Assembly: GCA_903925685.1 (NCBI GenBank)
Contig: CAIYGI010000239.1
Span: forward strand, 1-33,078
Length of the DNA stretch: 33,078 bases
Source: an uncultured bacterium
GTDB taxonomy: Bacteria; Verrucomicrobiota; Kiritimatiellia; CAIKKV01; CAIYGI01
Reading direction: 5' to 3'
Positions 10,541 through 19,547 of the stretch are shown here, one piece after another. Numbering within the stretch: the stretch's first letter is position 1; each line of letters starts with the position of its first letter. The position numbers and the translations under genes were made by a program. The notes under the pieces are model-generated. The model ran no database searches. It was not told where the DNA came from and saw only the letters and a program-made list of their open reading frames with translations.

Positions 10541-11803
10541 GTGGCCGTCAAGATTCGGATTCTATCGTCTGCCAAACGAACCTTGCAACGGGTTGGTTTT
10601 CTGAAGTTGCTTTGTGCGCAAACAGCCCGGACTGAGACCAGTAACCTTGCTGCCGTCGGAAAGCAGTTCGTTCAGAAAGTAATGACCCGCGTCCGTGTGT
10701 CCCCTCCGTTCAGTGATACGCTGAAGGATTATGTTCGCTGTCGGTTGGGCGACAAGGTTTACCACGACATCCGGAAAAGCGTGTTGAACGGGCAAGGCCA
10801 TTCTGCCCCGGTAGGACTGGAGTTTCAGGATCTGTATCTTGCGGACGAGAAGATGCCATCGACAACCGGCAAACTGGTTGAAGAAGATTGGCGCCGTTAC
10901 CCATATTTGGGAACAGGTTTAGACCTTATCAAGGGCGGCACCTATTCGGTCATGACTCGCGCCCTGGTTCTTCTGGCCGTCACGCCGAAGGAAGAAATCG
11001 CGGCCTTTGAGCAGTACGATGCCAAGAACAACCCCCTGCTGCTTTCTCCCGAACAAGCCGCCGTCTTGCTCTACTGCTTTATAGACAACGACGCCGAGAT
11101 TATCTATCGGCTGTTCCACACCCTGGTTGCCCTCGATACCGAGAGTTTTGACGAACGCATCGCGGGCGATTTCCTGCCGCAGATCATTCGTGAATCAGCC
11201 AATTCCTTTCGCAACGCCTCCCTTCCCATCGAAGACCGGGAGCGGCTTGGATTTCTTGAGAAGGTTGCGGGGAACATTGCCGAATGGAAGGGCAAACCCT
11301 ACACCGGTAGCGGGTCGCGCGAGGAGTTCATCCGCGTGCGGATCGAACCGTACTGCGACTTGGGCTTATTCGAGAAACCGGACCGCCACCGCTTCGTCTA
11401 CAAGGTCACGCCCGGTCTTCGCAAACTCATGACCAACTGGTACGGCCTTGACGCCACCGACGATTTCCTCGAAACCCGATTTTTCACAACGGTCGGCGGC
11501 CTGAACAAGTTGAAAGTCCGCGAGGCGACGGACGAGGAGGCCAAAGCCGCACTTCTCGAAGCCGGCAAAACCCTAAAAAGCACACTGGGCTACAGCCCGA
11601 TAACAGACGTGGGGCTTCTCGCCGGGATTCGCCTGCTCTTTCAGCAGAAGCGGATTCTGGAGTTGACTCGTACGCGCACCCTTCTCCGTGCCTGGCAGAA
11701 GGAGGCCCCGACGGTAGTACGCTTCACCGTGGACCGCATGGGCGCGCTAGCCTATGTGAAGTTCATAACGGGGCCCCCTTCAGGCATGGGAAAGAGCGCA
11801 TGA
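10541..11803 (+). CDS. unknown operon protein, winged-helix-like
   Basis: 420 aa, not recognised. It reads as a soluble, mostly helical protein without Cys clusters or membrane segments. The region around residues 265-315 (REEFIRVRIEPYCDLGLFEK...HRFVYKVTPGL) has the helix-helix-beta-hairpin rhythm of a winged helix with a wing-like DRHRFVYKVT. The GTG at 10541 is preferred to a TTG six bases earlier because GGAGGG lies about 8 bases before it. Its stop overlaps the methylase start (ATGA), so the two proteins are translationally coupled. It may be a DNA-binding or specificity subunit, but this is inference from position. Confidence 0.75.
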   Translation: MAVKIRILSSAKRTLQRVGFLKLLCAQTARTETSNLAAVGKQFVQKVMTRVRVSPPFSDTLKDYVRCRLGDKVYHDIRKSVLNGQGHSAPVGLEFQDLYLADEKMPSTTGKLVEEDWRRYPYLGTGLDLIKGGTYSVMTRALVLLAVTPKEEIAAFEQYDAKNNPLLLSPEQAAVLLYCFIDNDAEIIYRLFHTLVALDTESFDERIAGDFLPQIIRESANSFRNASLPIEDRERLGFLEKVAGNIAEWKGKPYTGSGSREEFIRVRIEPYCDLGLFEKPDRHRFVYKVTPGLRKLMTNWYGLDATDDFLETRFFTTVGGLNKLKVREATDEEAKAALLEAGKTLKSTLGYSPITDVGLLAGIRLLFQQKRILELTRTRTLLRAWQKEAPTVVRFTVDRMGALAYVKFITGPPSGMGKSA

Positions 11804-14800
11804 AGACGGTGCTTTCGGACATTTTCGGCCGGACTCTCGCCCCGTTGGCTGATGAAACCCACGCCTGCTTGCGGCTTGACCAACTCAGTCCGGTCGAGGA
11901 CCAACAGACCCTCAAGGCTCCCACGGGTACGGCGCTCATACTCGGAATCGATGACACCAAACGGGAGCCCGTTGCCCTGTTCTGCATCGCCGCGCCGACG
12001 CTCTCGCCGGATTATCCCGGCCTACTCGCCATGATTGTCCGGCGCGCCCAAGCGTATAAGGCACCGTACTTCATCACCTGGACCCTTCGGGATGCCGTTT
12101 TGTGGAAGACCCCCAAGCCCGGCACTCCGGCTCAGAAGTCTCATTTGGAGAAGATTCGGGACTACGAAGACAACTACGCGATCGCCCAGGACGGTTGCAA
12201 CCAAGTCTTCGACGAATCCCTCCGCCTTCGCATTCTCGAAAGAGGTCGGATGATACTGGCCGACGTGGAATGCCTGTTCAAGAATCAGGCCCTCGAACTG
12301 GTGCGAATTGACGCCACGTATTTCGTTCAGAGTCTGCTGGACTCCGTCCATGCCCTGTTGCCGATGGTCACGGACTCCCTCCACATGCGGTTTGAAACCG
12401 ACTTGGACCTCCGGGCGAAGTTCAACGCCTGGGCCATCACGCAAGGCATTGCCGGCGACTACAAGGACCGCGACTACGCCCTCGCCATCGCCCGGCAGAT
12501 CATCTACCGGCTACTCGGCAAGATTCTGTTTTACCAAGGTTTGCGCCGCGCCGCCCGCCAACTTCCGGTCCTGAAACTCGACGACGTTGACCCTTCCCAG
12601 GTTCTCCCGATCCTGCGCCGCGCCTTTGCCGAAGCCCTGAAGGTGGACTACCACGCCGTCTTTTCAGAAGACCTTCCCGACACGCTCTCTTGGCCCGGCG
12701 AGGCCGCCAAACGGCTCGCCGCCCTGATTCACGACTTCAACACCCGCGACTTCTCCAGTCTGCCGCAGGACGTTGTGGGCACCGTCTTTGAACGTCTCAT
12801 CCCGCCCGAGGACCGCCACCTACTGGGCCAGTACTTTACCAACGAACCCCTCTGCGACCTGGGCATCGCCTTCTGCGTGCAGTCCCCGTCGGACGTGGTG
12901 GCCGATCTGACGTGCGGCACCGGCACCTTCCTCATTCGCTCCTACGACCGCAAGCGGTGGTTGGGCAACCACGATCACGCGGCCTTGCTTTCGCAGTTGT
13001 GGGGCATTGACATCGCGCCGTTCCCGGCGGAACTGGCCGTCATCAATCTCTTCCGGCAGAACCTTACCGCCGCCGGGAACTTTCCCCGTATTGCTTGCCG
13101 CGACGTACTCACCATCAAACCCGGCGACACGCTTCCATTCCCGCCGCCCAAAATGGACATTGAACACCCCGAGCAGATTCAAGAGCCGGTCCCGCTGTTC
13201 GATGCCATTGTCGGCAACTTCCCCTACGTTAGCGCCGACCAGATCGGCCAGAAGGACCCCGGCTATCTCGACTTCATCCGCCGTACAATGATCGAAGGAT
13301 GGCTGGAGAAGTACCCCGCCCTGTTCTGTTACGCCAACAAGACCGAGCAGAAGTCATTCGAGATCAACATCGCCGCCGGTATGCACAAGGCCGTTGACCG
13401 GGACCGCTTGGAACTCCGCACGTCCACCTACGCCGACCTGTACGTTTACCTGTTCTTCCATGCCGCCCGGTTCCTCAAACCCGGCGGGCGCATGGGCATC
13501 ATCACGTCGAACGCCTGGCTCGACGTGAACTTCGGCTACGCCCTGGAACGGTTCTTCTGCGACCAGTTCAAGATCGTCGCAATTCTGGAAAGCCGCTGTG
13601 AACCCTGGTTTACGGAAGCCTCTGTCAACACCGTCTATACCATCATCGAACGTTGCGAGGACCAGAAAGAACGCGACAGCCATCTGGTTAAGTTCGTTAA
13701 AGTGAAGAAACGACTCGCCGACCTGATTCCGGGCGACCCCCAGATCGAAGCCGTGGAACGTTGGAAGCGGCATCTTCGTCTGGCGGATAAGATAGAAGCG
13801 ACCGGACGGAAGGATGCCAAGACCGTTCCGCTCGGTGTCTTAACCGAAGAAAACAACGACTTTCGAATCCGCGTCTGCCGTCAAGGCGAGTTGCGGGCGG
13901 ACTTGGGGCGTGAACAGAAGACCGTGAAATGGGGCAAGTACCTGCGCGCACCTGACGTTTTCTTTGACCTGATCGAACGGAGGTCCCTCTGCCTGCTTGC
14001 TCAAATTGCCCAAGTGCGGCGCGGAAGTTTGACTGGCATCAACGAGTTCTACCACATCTTGCCCGACCGGGCGAAGGAACTGGGTATTGAACCTGAGTTT
14101 CTGAAACCGTTGCTGAAATCGCCTGGCGAGTCCGGCTTCATCCCGATTGACAAGAAGCAACTCGCCCTTCGCCTGTTCGTCTGCCGGTTGACGAAAGCGG
14201 AACTCAAGAAGCAGGGTAAGACTGGGGCACTGAAATACATCGAATGGGGCGAGAAACAGGTTTTTCAATCCGGAGCACAACGCGGGTTGACATGGCCGCA
14301 CGGCGCGGAAGTGAAGGTCCGCGCCCCCGGCTGGTATGCCATCCCGGACCACCGATCGAAGCCGGCCCACGTCTTCTTTGCTTGCGCGTTCGGCGAACGA
14401 CACATGCACCGGTTCTGCTCAACACCTGTGATCGCAGACAAACGCCTTTATTTCCTCACTGCCGAGAATGGGATCGGCGACACGTTGCTTGCGGCCATCA
14501 TGAACTCTTTCGTGACGGCTCTTAGCGCCGAGCTTATGGGCCGTCTCACAATGGGCGACGGTGTTCTTGAACTCACCGTGGAGGAGGCCAACGACTATCT
14601 CCTTGTTCCCGACCTGCGGGTGGTCTCGGCCGCACACAAGAAGGCAATCACTTCCGCCTTTGACATGCTCTGCCAACGTGAGATCGGCAACGTTTTCGAC
14701 GAGGTGAAGCAGAAGGACCGGCAGGCGCTCGACTCGGCGATCCTGACGGCCATCGGCCTTGACCCCAAGAAGTACCTGAAGCCGATCTACGAGGCTCTCT

Positions 14801-15318
14801 GCGAACTGGTCCGGGAGCGGATCAACCTGGGCGAACAACGCTGCAAGACCCGTAAGACCAAGGCCCGCAAGAGCAAGGCGGAGAACGAGAGTTTCACGGA
14901 AGTCCTGGACGAGCAGCTTCCCTCCGGCCCCAAGCGTTTCCCCGATGACCTGTTTTCCTCCGATGCCGCGAAAGGTGAAATGATCGAAGTCCCGTTGCCG
15001 GAAACCCCGCTGCGACTCGACCTCGTGTTAACCCATGCAACGCTGTACGAAGGCAGCAAACCTTTTCGCGAGGCCCGGTTCCCCGCCGAGGGGAAGTTCA
15101 TCCTTTACTGCCAGCAGGCCGGGCAGGTCGTCGCGCGCATTCCATTGAAGATCGTGGAAGTCACCCGGACGATTGCCAACTACGAGAATTATCTGCGCGA
15201 CTTGCGGAAGACTCTTTACGACGCCTACTACCGGCGGACCCTTGACGTGGCGGTCGCGGGACGCCTCACCCAGGCGGCCTTTGACCGGTTCAAGTTGCCG
15301 AAGATATCGAGCGAATAA
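11800..15318 (+). CDS. large N6-adenine DNA methyltransferase (type IIG/PglX-like architecture)
   Basis: 1172 aa. An N-terminal domain (~40-110) resembles the fold at the start of type IIG and HsdR proteins, including ITWTLRDAVLWKT where those have a TNG..W-type strand. The usual E-x-K is replaced by CIA, so nuclease activity looks lost. The methylase core has GQYFTN (~343-348, motif X), DLTCGTG (369-375, SAM binding) and the catalytic motif IV as NFPY (473-476) in place of NPPY. A target-recognition region follows (~700-950). The C-terminal ~110 residues (1059-1172) are homologous to the end of the next gene product. Expected role: methylation of a host DNA site for self marking. It is coupled to both neighbours by overlapping start/stop codons. 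Confidence 0.9.
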   Translation: MKTVLSDIFGRTLAPLADETHACLRLDQLSPVEDQQTLKAPTGTALILGIDDTKREPVALFCIAAPTLSPDYPGLLAMIVRRAQAYKAPYFITWTLRDAVLWKTPKPGTPAQKSHLEKIRDYEDNYAIAQDGCNQVFDESLRLRILERGRMILADVECLFKNQALELVRIDATYFVQSLLDSVHALLPMVTDSLHMRFETDLDLRAKFNAWAITQGIAGDYKDRDYALAIARQIIYRLLGKILFYQGLRRAARQLPVLKLDDVDPSQVLPILRRAFAEALKVDYHAVFSEDLPDTLSWPGEAAKRLAALIHDFNTRDFSSLPQDVVGTVFERLIPPEDRHLLGQYFTNEPLCDLGIAFCVQSPSDVVADLTCGTGTFLIRSYDRKRWLGNHDHAALLSQLWGIDIAPFPAELAVINLFRQNLTAAGNFPRIACRDVLTIKPGDTLPFPPPKMDIEHPEQIQEPVPLFDAIVGNFPYVSADQIGQKDPGYLDFIRRTMIEGWLEKYPALFCYANKTEQKSFEINIAAGMHKAVDRDRLELRTSTYADLYVYLFFHAARFLKPGGRMGIITSNAWLDVNFGYALERFFCDQFKIVAILESRCEPWFTEASVNTVYTIIERCEDQKERDSHLVKFVKVKKRLADLIPGDPQIEAVERWKRHLRLADKIEATGRKDAKTVPLGVLTEENNDFRIRVCRQGELRADLGREQKTVKWGKYLRAPDVFFDLIERRSLCLLAQIAQVRRGSLTGINEFYHILPDRAKELGIEPEFLKPLLKSPGESGFIPIDKKQLALRLFVCRLTKAELKKQGKTGALKYIEWGEKQVFQSGAQRGLTWPHGAEVKVRAPGWYAIPDHRSKPAHVFFACAFGERHMHRFCSTPVIADKRLYFLTAENGIGDTLLAAIMNSFVTALSAELMGRLTMGDGVLELTVEEANDYLLVPDLRVVSAAHKKAITSAFDMLCQREIGNVFDEVKQKDRQALDSAILTAIGLDPKKYLKPIYEALCELVRERINLGEQRCKTRKTKARKSKAENESFTEVLDEQLPSGPKRFPDDLFSSDAAKGEMIEVPLPETPLRLDLVLTHATLYEGSKPFREARFPAEGKFILYCQQAGQVVARIPLKIVEVTRTIANYENYLRDLRKTLYDAYYRRTLDVAVAGRLTQAAFDRFKLPKISSE

Positions 15319-16274
15319 TGGGTAAGAATATGGCGGACCAGACCATAGGCGAGATCGCGTTGGGGGAGAGCACAAAGCTCATTTTCAACGTGAGTGAGTG
15401 GCGCGGGCGTCAGTTCGCCGGCGTCCGCAAATTCGTCGCGACGCAGAAGTACGAGGGCTGGACCAAGGCCGGCTTGTCCATGCCCCGGAACCTGTTGCGC
15501 GCCTTGTTGGACACCCTCACCGCGCTTGAGCGGTCGCTCCCTCCGAAGGAAGAACACGAGTTCAAGCGCATCCCGAAGGGCGATACCGAGTACGTCAAAG
15601 TGATGACCCTTCCGCCTGACGACGAGGGGTTGCCCCTCGTGGACGTGCGCGAGTATGTGGACAAACCGACCTACCAAGGCCCAACCAAGAGCGGCGTGCG
15701 GTTCCGTTGGAATTTGCTGCCTGATGTGCTTGCATGTCTGCGTGAACAAGCGAAAGTCATCGGCGACAACGAGCGGAGTGAACCGACGCTATTCGGTCCT
15801 GGCGCTTTTGCAGACCCTGAGGAACCGAAACCGGCCCCGTGTGCAGGGGCGCACGAGAACGGCATTTCCGATTTGGTCGGCGAGGCGATCAAGGCATTTC
15901 CGGCCGAATTCCTCGACGGCGCGCATGGCAAGGGGCAGACCCTCAGTTTGCCGGAAGACCCCCTGCGTCTGGAGCAGGACAACGGCGGGCGTTACCCCCT
16001 TAGAACGCAGGAATGCCAGTTCTGCGCGGTGCGCAATCCGGCAGAAGCCAACTTCATCATCTACGCCCAATTGCGTGGGCATTGCGAAGTTGTCCTGCCA
16101 AGCGCCATGATCCAGATCTTCAAGGCGGTCAAGTCATATGAGAACTATGTCCGCAGTGTGCAAACGAGACTTGTGGCAAAAGTCATGAAGAAGGCGGCCC
16201 AGCATTCCGTTGCCGAGTATGAAGCCCGCAAGAAGATGGGCGAAGCCGGTTTGCCGTGGCTTGCTTCTGAATAA
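15318..16274 (+). CDS. tandem PC4-like ssDNA-binding protein with methylase-shared tail
   Basis: 318 aa. Two copies of a PC4/p15-type domain are visible. The first (~10-75) runs KLIFNVSEWRGR...VRKFV...GWTKAGLSMP and the helix that follows. The second (~88-147) is more divergent (VKVMTLP...VDVREYV...PTKSGVRFRWNLLP). PC4-type folds bind single-stranded or distorted DNA. Residues ~205-290 align with the methylase C terminus: LPEDPLRLE against LPETPLRLD, PAEANFIIYAQ against PAEGKFILYCQ, and SYENYVRSV against NYENYLRDL. The gene starts at the last base of the methylase stop (TAATG). I infer that the common tail docks both proteins on the same partner or on each other. Confidence 0.82.
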   Translation: MGKNMADQTIGEIALGESTKLIFNVSEWRGRQFAGVRKFVATQKYEGWTKAGLSMPRNLLRALLDTLTALERSLPPKEEHEFKRIPKGDTEYVKVMTLPPDDEGLPLVDVREYVDKPTYQGPTKSGVRFRWNLLPDVLACLREQAKVIGDNERSEPTLFGPGAFADPEEPKPAPCAGAHENGISDLVGEAIKAFPAEFLDGAHGKGQTLSLPEDPLRLEQDNGGRYPLRTQECQFCAVRNPAEANFIIYAQLRGHCEVVLPSAMIQIFKAVKSYENYVRSVQTRLVAKVMKKAAQHSVAEYEARKKMGEAGLPWLASE

Positions 16275-16288
16275 CTCGGGAGGCGATT

Positions 16289-17461
16289 ATGGCATCAATA
16301 CGGTTCAAGAGATTCACCAAACCCCATGTCCTGAAGGACATCGGACGCGCCTTGCTCGGGCGCTTCTTTGCCAAGTTCAAGGACGACCTGGCCGAGAAGG
16401 AAGTCACCCTGCCGGACCCGGCGCTGGCGGATGAAGAGTATTTCGGGACATTGGCCGACGTTCTACTGTCGCCCGAGGGTCTGCCCGGCACCTTGAATGA
16501 CGCCCTGTATGCCATAGACGAGATGGCGACGGAGGACGGACAGCAACGCCTGGAGGAAGGCGTTGCCGAGGCTCAGTTGCCACTGACTTTCGACGAGAAG
16601 TCAACCCGCGAGGACATTGCCTTGCAGGTCTGGCTTGAATCACCGGAACTGCTCGCGCAGAAACACAACGAACAACGCCTGATTCGCCTTTCTTCCTTCG
16701 AGTATTACAGCAACCCGGCCCCGACCGACCGGAGCGCCACCTTCCAAGCGCCCGACGCCGCCACACTTGACGCCCTTACCGGGGCATTCGATCTGTGGTT
16801 CTCTCGGCACAACCGCGGCCACAAGAACACCAAGATCGAACCCCACGAGATTGACGGCGAGTTCTGGTTCATGATCCGCCACGGGGACACCTACGCCAGG
16901 ACGCCGAAGGTTGAAGGGTCGCGGAGCGAAGTCTTGCACTATCGCCCCGAAAAAGATGACGTGGTTGTCTACACGCCCGACCTGGACGAAATCCGCATCC
17001 ACGCCGGCACCAAGGGCGAGAAGCAACTCTACCGCGAAAAGTTCGGATTCTACCTGTTCGGGCGGGAGAACTTCTTCTCCGAGTTTAAGACCTACACGTT
17101 GGAACCGTTGCGGTTGGGGAAGGACTCCCTTGACCCGCAAGGCATTGAAGGAATCCGGGAAATTATCCTGCGCGAGGTCGAAATGGGATGGGACGGTCAG
17201 TTCAACGACGGCCTTGTCCGCAAGTCTGACGACGTGTTTGCCAGCGCGGCCGCCTACGAACGGTCTTTCAACCCGATCAACGAGAAGGCAAAACTTCGGC
17301 GCGCCGCGTTCGACGTGTACTTCGGCGACGAGGAGAAGCCCCGCAAGGTGCAGATTCGTCCACCGAACATTCTGAAACTGGGTCGTCACTGCGACGCCCG
17401 CCTCGTCCATCGGTGGCTGTCAAAGCAGAAGTTCCGCACAACGGGGCAGGTTCAGGAGTAA
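16289..17461 (+). CDS. unknown operon protein
   Basis: 390 aa, not recognised. It is soluble and acidic, with a helical N-terminal third and a beta-rich middle (~175-260, FWFMIRHGDTYAR...YRPEKDDVVVYTPDLDEIRIHAG). The C terminus is basic (RPPNILKLGRHCDARLVHRWLSKQKF). GGGAGG lies seven bases before the ATG. The stop is followed 14 bases later by the protease gene. Position between the PC4-like protein and the protease suggests a subunit or a protease substrate, with no sequence proof. Confidence 0.75.
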   Translation: MASIRFKRFTKPHVLKDIGRALLGRFFAKFKDDLAEKEVTLPDPALADEEYFGTLADVLLSPEGLPGTLNDALYAIDEMATEDGQQRLEEGVAEAQLPLTFDEKSTREDIALQVWLESPELLAQKHNEQRLIRLSSFEYYSNPAPTDRSATFQAPDAATLDALTGAFDLWFSRHNRGHKNTKIEPHEIDGEFWFMIRHGDTYARTPKVEGSRSEVLHYRPEKDDVVVYTPDLDEIRIHAGTKGEKQLYREKFGFYLFGRENFFSEFKTYTLEPLRLGKDSLDPQGIEGIREIILREVEMGWDGQFNDGLVRKSDDVFASAAAYERSFNPINEKAKLRRAAFDVYFGDEEKPRKVQIRPPNILKLGRHCDARLVHRWLSKQKFRTTGQVQE

Positions 17462-17475
17462 GGAGGCCGCGCCCC

Positions 17476-18210
17476 ATGAAGACCATTGCCGATTTGTGCC
17501 ATGCCGCCCGGCCGGTCTGTTTCGACAACAAGGTTGAGGATTATGACTACAGTCTTCAGGGAACCGCTTTCCTGGTTCGATTCCATGGCGAGTTGTTCGC
17601 GGTCACGGCAGAGCACGTCTTGAAAAATTACCGACCTGACCGGGTGTTGATTCCCTACGAAGTCGGTTCGGAACACTTCCTGCCGTTCGACGACGCCTTC
17701 CGTTTCCACACGCAGGAGACCGAGGACACCGACCACTGTGACCTCGCCGTCTTCTCAGTTGCCGAACGCAAGCTCGACAAGGCGTTGTTTGACGAAGGCA
17801 AAGTCTACAATCTGGACGCCGAACGCCGGTTTCCGGTGCCTGACGGCATGAAGTTGGTCATCCACGGTTTCCCCGATCCCATCAATGAAGTGGACTACGA
17901 TGCCCGCCATCTTGCCATGCGACGACTGAGCATAACGGCCAACGCAAGGGGATTGTCACGTTTCCTTGGCATGAAGGAATTGGACTTCGACACCGACGCC
18001 AAGATGTCTACGTTCAGCGGCATGAGTGGTTCGCCAGTATTCGCCATCTGCCCGATAAACCCCCAGCAAAGCGCGACAATGCTCGACGGCATGCTGCTTC
18101 GCGCCACCCCAGAGAGTCGCCACGGGTTCTACCTGGACGCAACCGTCATCAGGAACGTCATCGCTGGAGACGTCCGGGAGACCAGGAAGACAAAACGGGA
18201 AGCCCCATGA
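17476..18210 (+). CDS. trypsin-like serine protease, cytoplasmic
   Basis: 244 aa with a chymotrypsin-fold pattern. GTAFLVRF precedes FAVTAEHVL (His47), DHCDLAVF gives the Asp (Asp89), and FSGMSGSPVF gives the nucleophile (Ser184 in GMSGSP). No signal peptide or transmembrane helix is present, so it should act in the cytoplasm, where trypsin-like enzymes are rare outside conflict systems. In several recently described immune systems such proteases are triggered effectors. An upstream in-frame ATG at 17413 would overlap the preceding gene; the ATG at 17476 has AAGGAGG at 17460-17466. The gene overlaps the last operon gene by four bases. Confidence 0.88.
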   Translation: MKTIADLCHAARPVCFDNKVEDYDYSLQGTAFLVRFHGELFAVTAEHVLKNYRPDRVLIPYEVGSEHFLPFDDAFRFHTQETEDTDHCDLAVFSVAERKLDKALFDEGKVYNLDAERRFPVPDGMKLVIHGFPDPINEVDYDARHLAMRRLSITANARGLSRFLGMKELDFDTDAKMSTFSGMSGSPVFAICPINPQQSATMLDGMLLRATPESRHGFYLDATVIRNVIAGDVRETRKTKREAP

Positions 18211-19547
18211 CTACCTGCCGCCTGTGGCAAATATTGGAGAGCATACCCGGTCCGGCGGCGGTCGCGGCGGTCTGGAAAGCCAATCTCGGGGCGGATTTCG
18301 ACACCTTCCGTGCGACATTCCTTCGCCAACTACGCACGCCGGCCAAGTCCTACCCGTGCCATCGCGAATGCGGTTGCGCCCATGAGATCGTGAGACACAA
18401 AGGCGGTTCGATTGTGGCCGTCTGCCGCTGCGAACCATCGCACTGCGACGACATCCGCCTGACCGACGCTGACGTTGCCATCCTGGAGTTGAACTGGCCG
18501 AAATTCGGCCGCGCCATCGCCCAGGCTTTCAGGTTTACACGGCGGGAAGCGGAAGTCGGGATCCCCCATACAATCCAGATTGCCGCCTACGGCGACGAGG
18601 CGTTTCCGGTGATTCTTACGATCCAACACGACCGCGCCGCCTTCCGCCAGACGGTTACGGCGCTCGCGGCACACTTGCGCGCCCGGTTCATCCTCGTCGC
18701 GCCGACGGCTGGTTTCATGGATGCGACCTCTCGCCAGATTCTCGCCAACCTGAATGGTGACTTCTTGCCGCTGGACACGACAGTCCGCATCACCGAAACG
18801 GGATCTCTCACGACCGTCAAAACAATTGCCGAACTACTTGGCCGCCAAGAAGTCCGTGTGCCTGCCGCGACTGGTCCCCGCTACGCCCTCGTCAAGGGCA
18901 TGAAATCCTGGGGCCTGGTTTTCGACGGCGCCTCGGCGCCCGTGAAACACGAGAAGGGGATCCTCTACGTGGCCTATCTTCTCCATAATCCGCCGATAGA
19001 ACCAATCCACGCCCTCGACCTTGCGGTCAAGGTCCCGGAAATATACCGCAAGCAACTCGGAATCACGGCAACGACCGACGCCGTCACCGGTGAGGCCGCC
19101 CCTCTGCACCGCCATGCCCGTATTCAGGAGCGCAGTCTCGGACTCGAAGCCCTGGAATCTGCAAAGGCCGTCTGGAAGGAACAACAGAAATGGGAGGCTG
19201 TGCTCGACGACGATAAGACGACCGAGCCGGAGCGGGCCGAGGCGTTGCGCTACCTGGAAGAGATCGCGACCTTTCAACGTCGTTACGCAGAACACAGCAA
19301 GAGCAACGCTGAAAATCTTGTTCGTGCGGTGCGTCGAGCGATCACGCGCTTCCATGACAACCTATCGAAGACGCTGGACAAGGACGGCAACCCGCACCCT
19401 GTCTTGACCGGATTCGCCAATCATCTAAACCAGTACCTTCTCATCCCATCGGCACGTTTTTCGGGAGGACCTTCGGTCCGCACACGAGCCCGTGTTGCCG
19501 GGTGTTTTACCTACGAACCGCCGCCCGGTGTTACCTGGGCCGGCTGA
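18207..19547 (+). CDS. unknown Cys-rich protein ending the operon
   Basis: 446 aa, not assigned to a named family. A Cys cluster at residues 51-80 (C51, C55, C57, C73, C75, C80, plus His and Asp) probably binds zinc; the CRCEPSHCDDI stretch is distinctive. A beta-rich middle follows (~105-290). A charged helical region (~300-400) rich in Glu, Arg and Lys may form a coiled coil. The start overlaps the protease stop (ATGA), and a strong terminator lies 24 bases after the stop, so this is the final gene of the unit. It may sense a ligand or damaged nucleic acid, but that is speculation. Confidence 0.75.
   Translation: MTTCRLWQILESIPGPAAVAAVWKANLGADFDTFRATFLRQLRTPAKSYPCHRECGCAHEIVRHKGGSIVAVCRCEPSHCDDIRLTDADVAILELNWPKFGRAIAQAFRFTRREAEVGIPHTIQIAAYGDEAFPVILTIQHDRAAFRQTVTALAAHLRARFILVAPTAGFMDATSRQILANLNGDFLPLDTTVRITETGSLTTVKTIAELLGRQEVRVPAATGPRYALVKGMKSWGLVFDGASAPVKHEKGILYVAYLLHNPPIEPIHALDLAVKVPEIYRKQLGITATTDAVTGEAAPLHRHARIQERSLGLEALESAKAVWKEQQKWEAVLDDDKTTEPERAEALRYLEEIATFQRRYAEHSKSNAENLVRAVRRAITRFHDNLSKTLDKDGNPHPVLTGFANHLNQYLLIPSARFSGGPSVRTRARVAGCFTYEPPPGVTWAG

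Follow-up and report, generated by a model that had tools for sequence, protein, structure and literature searches.

The N6-adenine DNA methyltransferase P0004 (MTase) and the protein encoded directly after it, P0005, end in one homologous, previously unnamed domain. Both genes lie in our window (the whole stretch of DNA analysed, 33,078 nucleotides; Table 1). The tail, as we call this domain, defines a family that is missing from the copy of Pfam that we searched, and it is reused on three heads within one operon. BLASTP aligned MTase residues 1045-1172 with P0005 residues 192-318 at 28% identity (E 5e-12; the 129 aligned columns hold 3 gaps), and in an all-versus-all BLASTP of 14 window proteins this was the sole pair with an E value below 0.8. 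When its own genome was searched in six frames, P0005 matched itself and the MTase tail alone (E 4.8e-9). Comparison of MTase-tail and PC4-tail profiles with hhalign was likewise significant (probability 99.7%, E 3.3e-27, 137 columns).

The window pair is only 28% identical, which might point to chance or compositional similarity. This reading, to which we give practically no weight, is refuted by the shuffled controls: the pair scored 127 by Smith-Waterman (Z 22), whereas 1000 shuffles averaged 26.9 (sd 4.5) and never exceeded 48, and six other pairs reached Z values of 32-58, in addition to the profile E value. A first-pass annotation of this DNA had already proposed, by eye, a shared C-terminal domain aligned with few gaps and encoded by adjacent genes coupled through TAATG. 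The homology it claimed is real, the motifs it quoted were found where it placed them in both proteins, its gaps are indeed few, and the overlap of the MTase stop and P0005 start is present at 15316-15320. The extent that it gave (MTase 1059-1145, P0005 about 205-290) is homologous but too short, as the real span covers MTase residues 1033-1172 and P0005 residues 180-318.

Table 1 Features of the window operon and of the two tail-bearing proteins.
Feature	Position	Strand	Basis or remark
PLD-like nuclease P0014	7391..7981	+	PLDc_2 8.2e-7; start uncertain, homology from residue ~23-26
AAA ATPase P0001	7978..9141	+	Pfam AAA 24.5 bits, cut-off 21.2
HerA-like translocase P0002	9159..10538	+	DUF87 2e-10; start from homologues, listed ORF from 9003
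Conserved protein P0003	10535..11803	+	Present in 5/5 operons
N6-adenine DNA methyltransferase P0004 (MTase), 1172 aa	11800..15318	+	Pfam Eco57I 6.9e-11, N6_Mtase 3.9e-9
Tail domain of MTase, residues 1033-1172	14896..15315	+	BLASTP 5e-12, HMM, hhalign 3.3e-27, model pLDDT 91.7
P0005, tandem PC4/PUR protein + tail, 318 aa	15318..16274	+	Start overlaps MTase stop
PC4 repeat 1 of P0005, residues about 8-72	15339..15533	+	Pfam PC4 7.4e-8; model
PC4 repeat 2 of P0005, residues about 80-150	15555..15767	+	hhalign repeat 1 vs 2, 3.7e-11; model
Linker of P0005	15768..15854	+	pLDDT mostly under 50
Tail domain of P0005, residues 180-318	15855..16271	+	Same sequence evidence as MTase tail; element order in P0005 model

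The predicted structures of the two tails agree in the order of their elements. Modelled alone (pLDDT 91.7, pTM 0.83), the MTase tail opens with two helices, the second of them short, followed by four strands; a further helix and a strand lead to a long helix (93-122) and a final helix. The P0005 model (pLDDT 73.8, pTM 0.49) consists of two beta4-alpha units, a low-confidence linker, and a tail in which fewer strands were called and confidence was lower; the two tails were compared by their order of elements. We considered whether the tail could be a third, diverged PC4 repeat and rejected this, since hhalign gave probabilities of 0.1 and 0.2% against the two repeats and the model has a helix where a strand would be expected. 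None of the 12 tail members described below had a Pfam match stronger than E 0.012, and no PDB sequence matched better than E 0.11; Foldseek against PDB and BFVD produced no hit that reached E 0.001, and VIA-align gave no clear structural match (best Z 3.7). The absence of a fold match does not prove a new fold. A literature search returned no description of the domain or the operon, which is weak evidence of novelty given the thin coverage of subscription papers.

We identified four further operons of this type in Verrucomicrobia, Rhodopirellula, and Acidobacteria metagenome-assembled genomes (MAGs; L051, L052, and L053, from a scan of genome contigs for the HerA pair) and on one IMG/VR contig (L043, from a tail scan of viral contigs). 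The genes for the PLD, AAA, HerA, P0003, and MTase proteins kept the same order in all five operons (tblastn), a sample that is small and made up of related members. Every MTase carries the tail, and a tandem-PC4-plus-tail protein is present in 4/5 operons. In L051, the PC4 protein was not found, transposase-like ORFs lie downstream, and the MAG has no second tail (either absence may reflect incompleteness). Two of the five operons (L043 and L052) encode a third tail protein, in which the tail stands between HARE-HTH (Pfam, 1.3e-10 and 1.6e-9) and Mrr_N domains (2.1e-14 and 1.8e-13). A STAND-like ATPase of ~525 aa follows the MTase in 4/5 operons; none was detected in the window by tblastn, and a search of its own genome, run without a positive control, was also empty. 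Scans of genome contigs with P0005 and of viral contigs with P0004 returned nothing, and further viral-contig scans yielded no contigs beyond those already known.

In total, 12 tails were found (5 MTase, 5 PC4, and 2 HARE) in the five operons and L005, an 8.2-kb viral contig with a PC4-protein tail that has lost its N-terminal part to the contig edge. Outside the window, counts over whole genomes or records were one in the L051 MAG, three in the L052 MAG, two in the L053 MAG, three on the L043 contig, and one on L005 (L047 and L071 duplicate the L043 contig and do not add to the counts). In L053, one tail was flagged for a TGA; since the tail has 135 aa and the match covers 136 codons, this is probably the natural stop of the gene. 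A six-frame search of the collected loci placed the tail on no operon protein other than the MTase, PC4, and HARE types. Fourteen columns are invariant in all 12 tails, including a Y-E-x-Y-x-R motif on the long helix, and conservation of the MTase tail (50-58%) is close to that of the MTase core (50-62%).

The MTase tails group apart from the others rather than with the tails of their own operons. In an IQ-TREE phylogeny (LG+G4) of the 12 sequences, the five MTase tails split from the PC4 and HARE tails (ultrafast bootstrap 100), and FastTree recovered the same split (support 1.0); the finer branching is uncertain (support 49-79). A tree constrained to operon groups was rejected (delta lnL 127, AU p 1e-4), as was one that joined the window pair, at a cost of 115 lnL units (p near 0). 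Given this grouping, the duplication of the tail predates the divergence of these operons, which supports the ancient domain duplication suggested in the first-pass annotation.

The three heads that bear the tail are all DNA-related by family or fold. The MTase exceeded the Pfam cut-offs for both N6_Mtase (36.7 bits, cut-off 20.4) and Eco57I (43 bits, cut-off 25.3), and its motif IV reads by eye as NFPY in four of the operons and NFPF in L053. At its N-terminus (window 11800-12130), the stretch APYFxTWTLRD recalls what we take to be an HsdR-N-type fold with no evident E-x-K, and this region is possibly an inactive nuclease domain. P0005 had been labelled PC4-like, which is right as far as it goes (Pfam PC4 on its head, 32.2 bits, above the gathering score of 25); the label is incomplete, the protein being a tandem PC4/PUR. 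In the model, its two head repeats form an intrachain pair that matches PURA I-II (Z 15.9, rmsd 2.8, 137 residues aligned), so that the head is predicted by fold to bind single-stranded DNA. P0005 thus resembles PC4 and PUR-alpha proteins of the ssDNA type in having two beta4-alpha repeats paired within the chain, and differs from them in adding the tail shared with the methylase and in sitting in an MTase/HerA operon. A tandem PC4/PUR protein of this kind could be an ssDNA sensor in restriction. For HARE-HTH, a role in reading modified DNA has been proposed, with debate over adenine versus cytosine (PMC11037411).

A tandem-PC4 protein was also seen elsewhere, in genome G229 (L039). It shares both repeats with P0005 (28% identity over P0005 residues 6-159) but is a 191-aa ORF without the tail and in another operon. 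This ORF (L039 8396-8971) follows an HsdR-like protein and a small metallopeptidase-like ORF and precedes an HATPase-like protein, and the locus is a possible further PC4-containing restriction locus.

The tail is rare in the genomes searched. A 3-row profile matched 2/288 genomes of the class (that of the window and one weak match, 0.0014), and a 6-row profile matched 1/387 genomes of the phylum (again that of the window). With a 12-row profile, 5/297 genomes matched in the phylum of the Acidobacteria MAG (that MAG, and others at 1.1e-19, 4.2e-10, 1.9e-7, and 0.0097). The 1.1e-19 match is a 132-aa tail ORF standing alone beside an IS21-helper-like ORF (L066 5760-6158). The next two matches (at L067 9440-9580 and L068 9367-9507) hold the C-terminal third of the tail only, after an in-frame TAA common to both genomes and between dGTPase-like and rpiB-like genes; these may be the remains of an old copy or a small ORF in its own right. 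Because these three copies lie outside it, the tail is not strictly confined to the operon, and it may have a use elsewhere. Among plasmids, the match to MTase relatives stops at residue 1009 or earlier in 10/10 cases, and tblastn gave no match for the MTase tail alone, for P0005, or for P0003; the PC4 tail had no tblastn match in phages.

What could one domain do on an N6-adenine methylase (a writer), a tandem PC4/PUR head, and a HARE-HTH/Mrr_N protein (a possible reader of modified DNA)? We lean towards the view that it is a docking adaptor that fixes different DNA heads to the core of HerA, AAA, P0003, and PLD proteins. Three observations argue for protein docking: the charge of the tails is near neutral or acidic, their invariant residues are common to all head types, and the tail is kept without other tail proteins (L051) or the STAND ATPase (the window). 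The last of these also indicates that the STAND ATPase is not a required partner. The third, DNA-reader-type tail protein in two operons favours a common dock, and the tail is thus probably a plug onto one machine, with the invariant core as the likely dock. We infer that the tail binds protein rather than DNA, that the core is its partner, and that the role is in defence. Each tail would seat its head at a common site or ring of the core, which comprises the HerA translocase (DUF87, 41.6 bits, cut-off 23.2; a HerA/FtsK-type ATPase), the AAA ATPase, P0003 (no Pfam or PDB sequence match), and the PLD-like nuclease. The latter is the sole evident nuclease of the operon and shows, by eye, HxK and GSxN, which we take to be PLD motifs. 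Writing, ssDNA sensing, and modification reading would then be joined on one DNA-translocating and DNA-cutting machine, and the assembled machine would restrict foreign DNA.

Paralogous domains often pair, and the tails could instead join the MTase, PC4, and HARE proteins as homo- or hetero-oligomers through their helices, without a dock on the core. The MTase and P0005 genes adjoin and overlap, and the modelled long helix and the helix after it would be able to pair. An obligate MTase-PC4 pair is at odds with the L051 MAG, where the MTase tail stands alone (unless a gene was missed), although homodimers would be possible there; overall we regard pairing as unlikely. The first-pass annotation had offered both docking on one partner and a heterodimer, and its likening of the tails to a swapped specificity interface does not appear to be borne out. 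That the tail itself binds nucleic acid, as a second DNA contact for each head, would fit carriers that are all DNA-related. This is harder to reconcile with net charges of -6 to +3 across the 12 tails, which are not strongly basic, and with the lack of a matched DNA-binding fold (weak evidence), and we consider it quite improbable.

Near the window operon are genes for an integrase (1307-2653), for PolA and an exonuclease, and for a ParB-like protein, and integrase-like and ParB-like ORFs lie downstream of L043. Given the integrase and phage-like replication genes, defence is not the sole possible role; the operon might serve the replication, transcription, or packaging of a mobile element, with the tails assembling that machine. 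We judge this rather unlikely, because the set of MTase, HerA, PLD, and HARE/Mrr_N recalls restriction systems and the flanking genes vary from operon to operon, as expected of cargo.

A separate module follows in the window (16289-19547), formed by P0006, P0007 (a trypsin-like protease), and P0008. The P0006 family occurs in 20/288 genomes of the class, with a distant second copy in the genome of the window (C178), and P0008 was matched in 6/13 loci carrying P0006. We rejected P0006-P0008 as part of the core in view of the occurrence of P0006 across the class, of a locus (L029) with P0006 and P0008 but without PC4 or MTase, and of their being matched in none of the four other operons, as far as those loci reach. 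The two window modules also stand side by side on the viral contig L005 (1-8242), where the PC4 tail, P0006 (88%), and a relative of P0008 (63%, 206 residues) lie amid phage-like genes.

It is possible, and we put this forward tentatively, that the operon is an undescribed defence system in which one plug-in domain carries interchangeable heads onto a HerA/AAA/PLD motor-nuclease, with sensors added via the plug. If docking is true, defence complexes would have a simple way of acquiring new DNA sensors, and any tail-bearing protein would be predicted to belong to such a complex.

Among named systems, the PLD protein is distantly similar to DrmC of DISARM (25.7 bits, 7.4e-6) but below the NCBIfam cut-off of 133, and DrmA and DrmB had no match among the matches listed. 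MADS, the methylation-associated defence system, shows a distant likeness in its MTase and ATPase (PADLOC mad2 6.2e-24, mad8 1.5e-19); MAD2 reached 40.1 bits against an NCBIfam cut-off of 720, and other mad proteins were unmatched among the matches listed. For BREX, there was no PglZ among the operon-protein matches (for P0004, among the best 25 of 33 PADLOC families), and Pfam BrxC_BrxD on P0001 scored 14.6 bits, under its cut-off of 22.2. The best plasmid HerA match to the window (24.8%, 6e-28) belongs to a Haloplanus locus that, by its annotation, resembles BREX-Related Capture (BRC) systems; the same plasmid (L050 4353-14124) has a BREX ATPase, HerA, GNAT, and queuosine genes nearby. The papers on HerA/FtsK capture and BRC (PMC10853773, PMC12839542) describe a HerA-like translocase, an Orc/Cdc6-like AAA protein, a STAND-like NTPase, a nuclease, and DNA-binding proteins, which have counterparts here (the Orc/Cdc6-like AAA protein a possible one, the STAND-like NTPase in most operons). 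In HerA/FtsK capture systems, the Orc/Cdc6 AAA carries an inserted inactive REase and is accompanied by an active one; here, the Orc1/cdc6 model TIGR02928 gave E 0.0029, below its cut-off, and the curated HerA model was likewise not reached at its cut-off. The operon proteins differ from those systems in lacking PglZ, DUF4007, GNAT, and TGT matches and in having the N6-adenine MTase, the PLD protein, the tandem PC4, and the shared tail as their own; the term 'PC4' is absent from the main texts of both papers. The operon looks like a restriction-type relative of the HerA capture systems, and we place it outside any named system.
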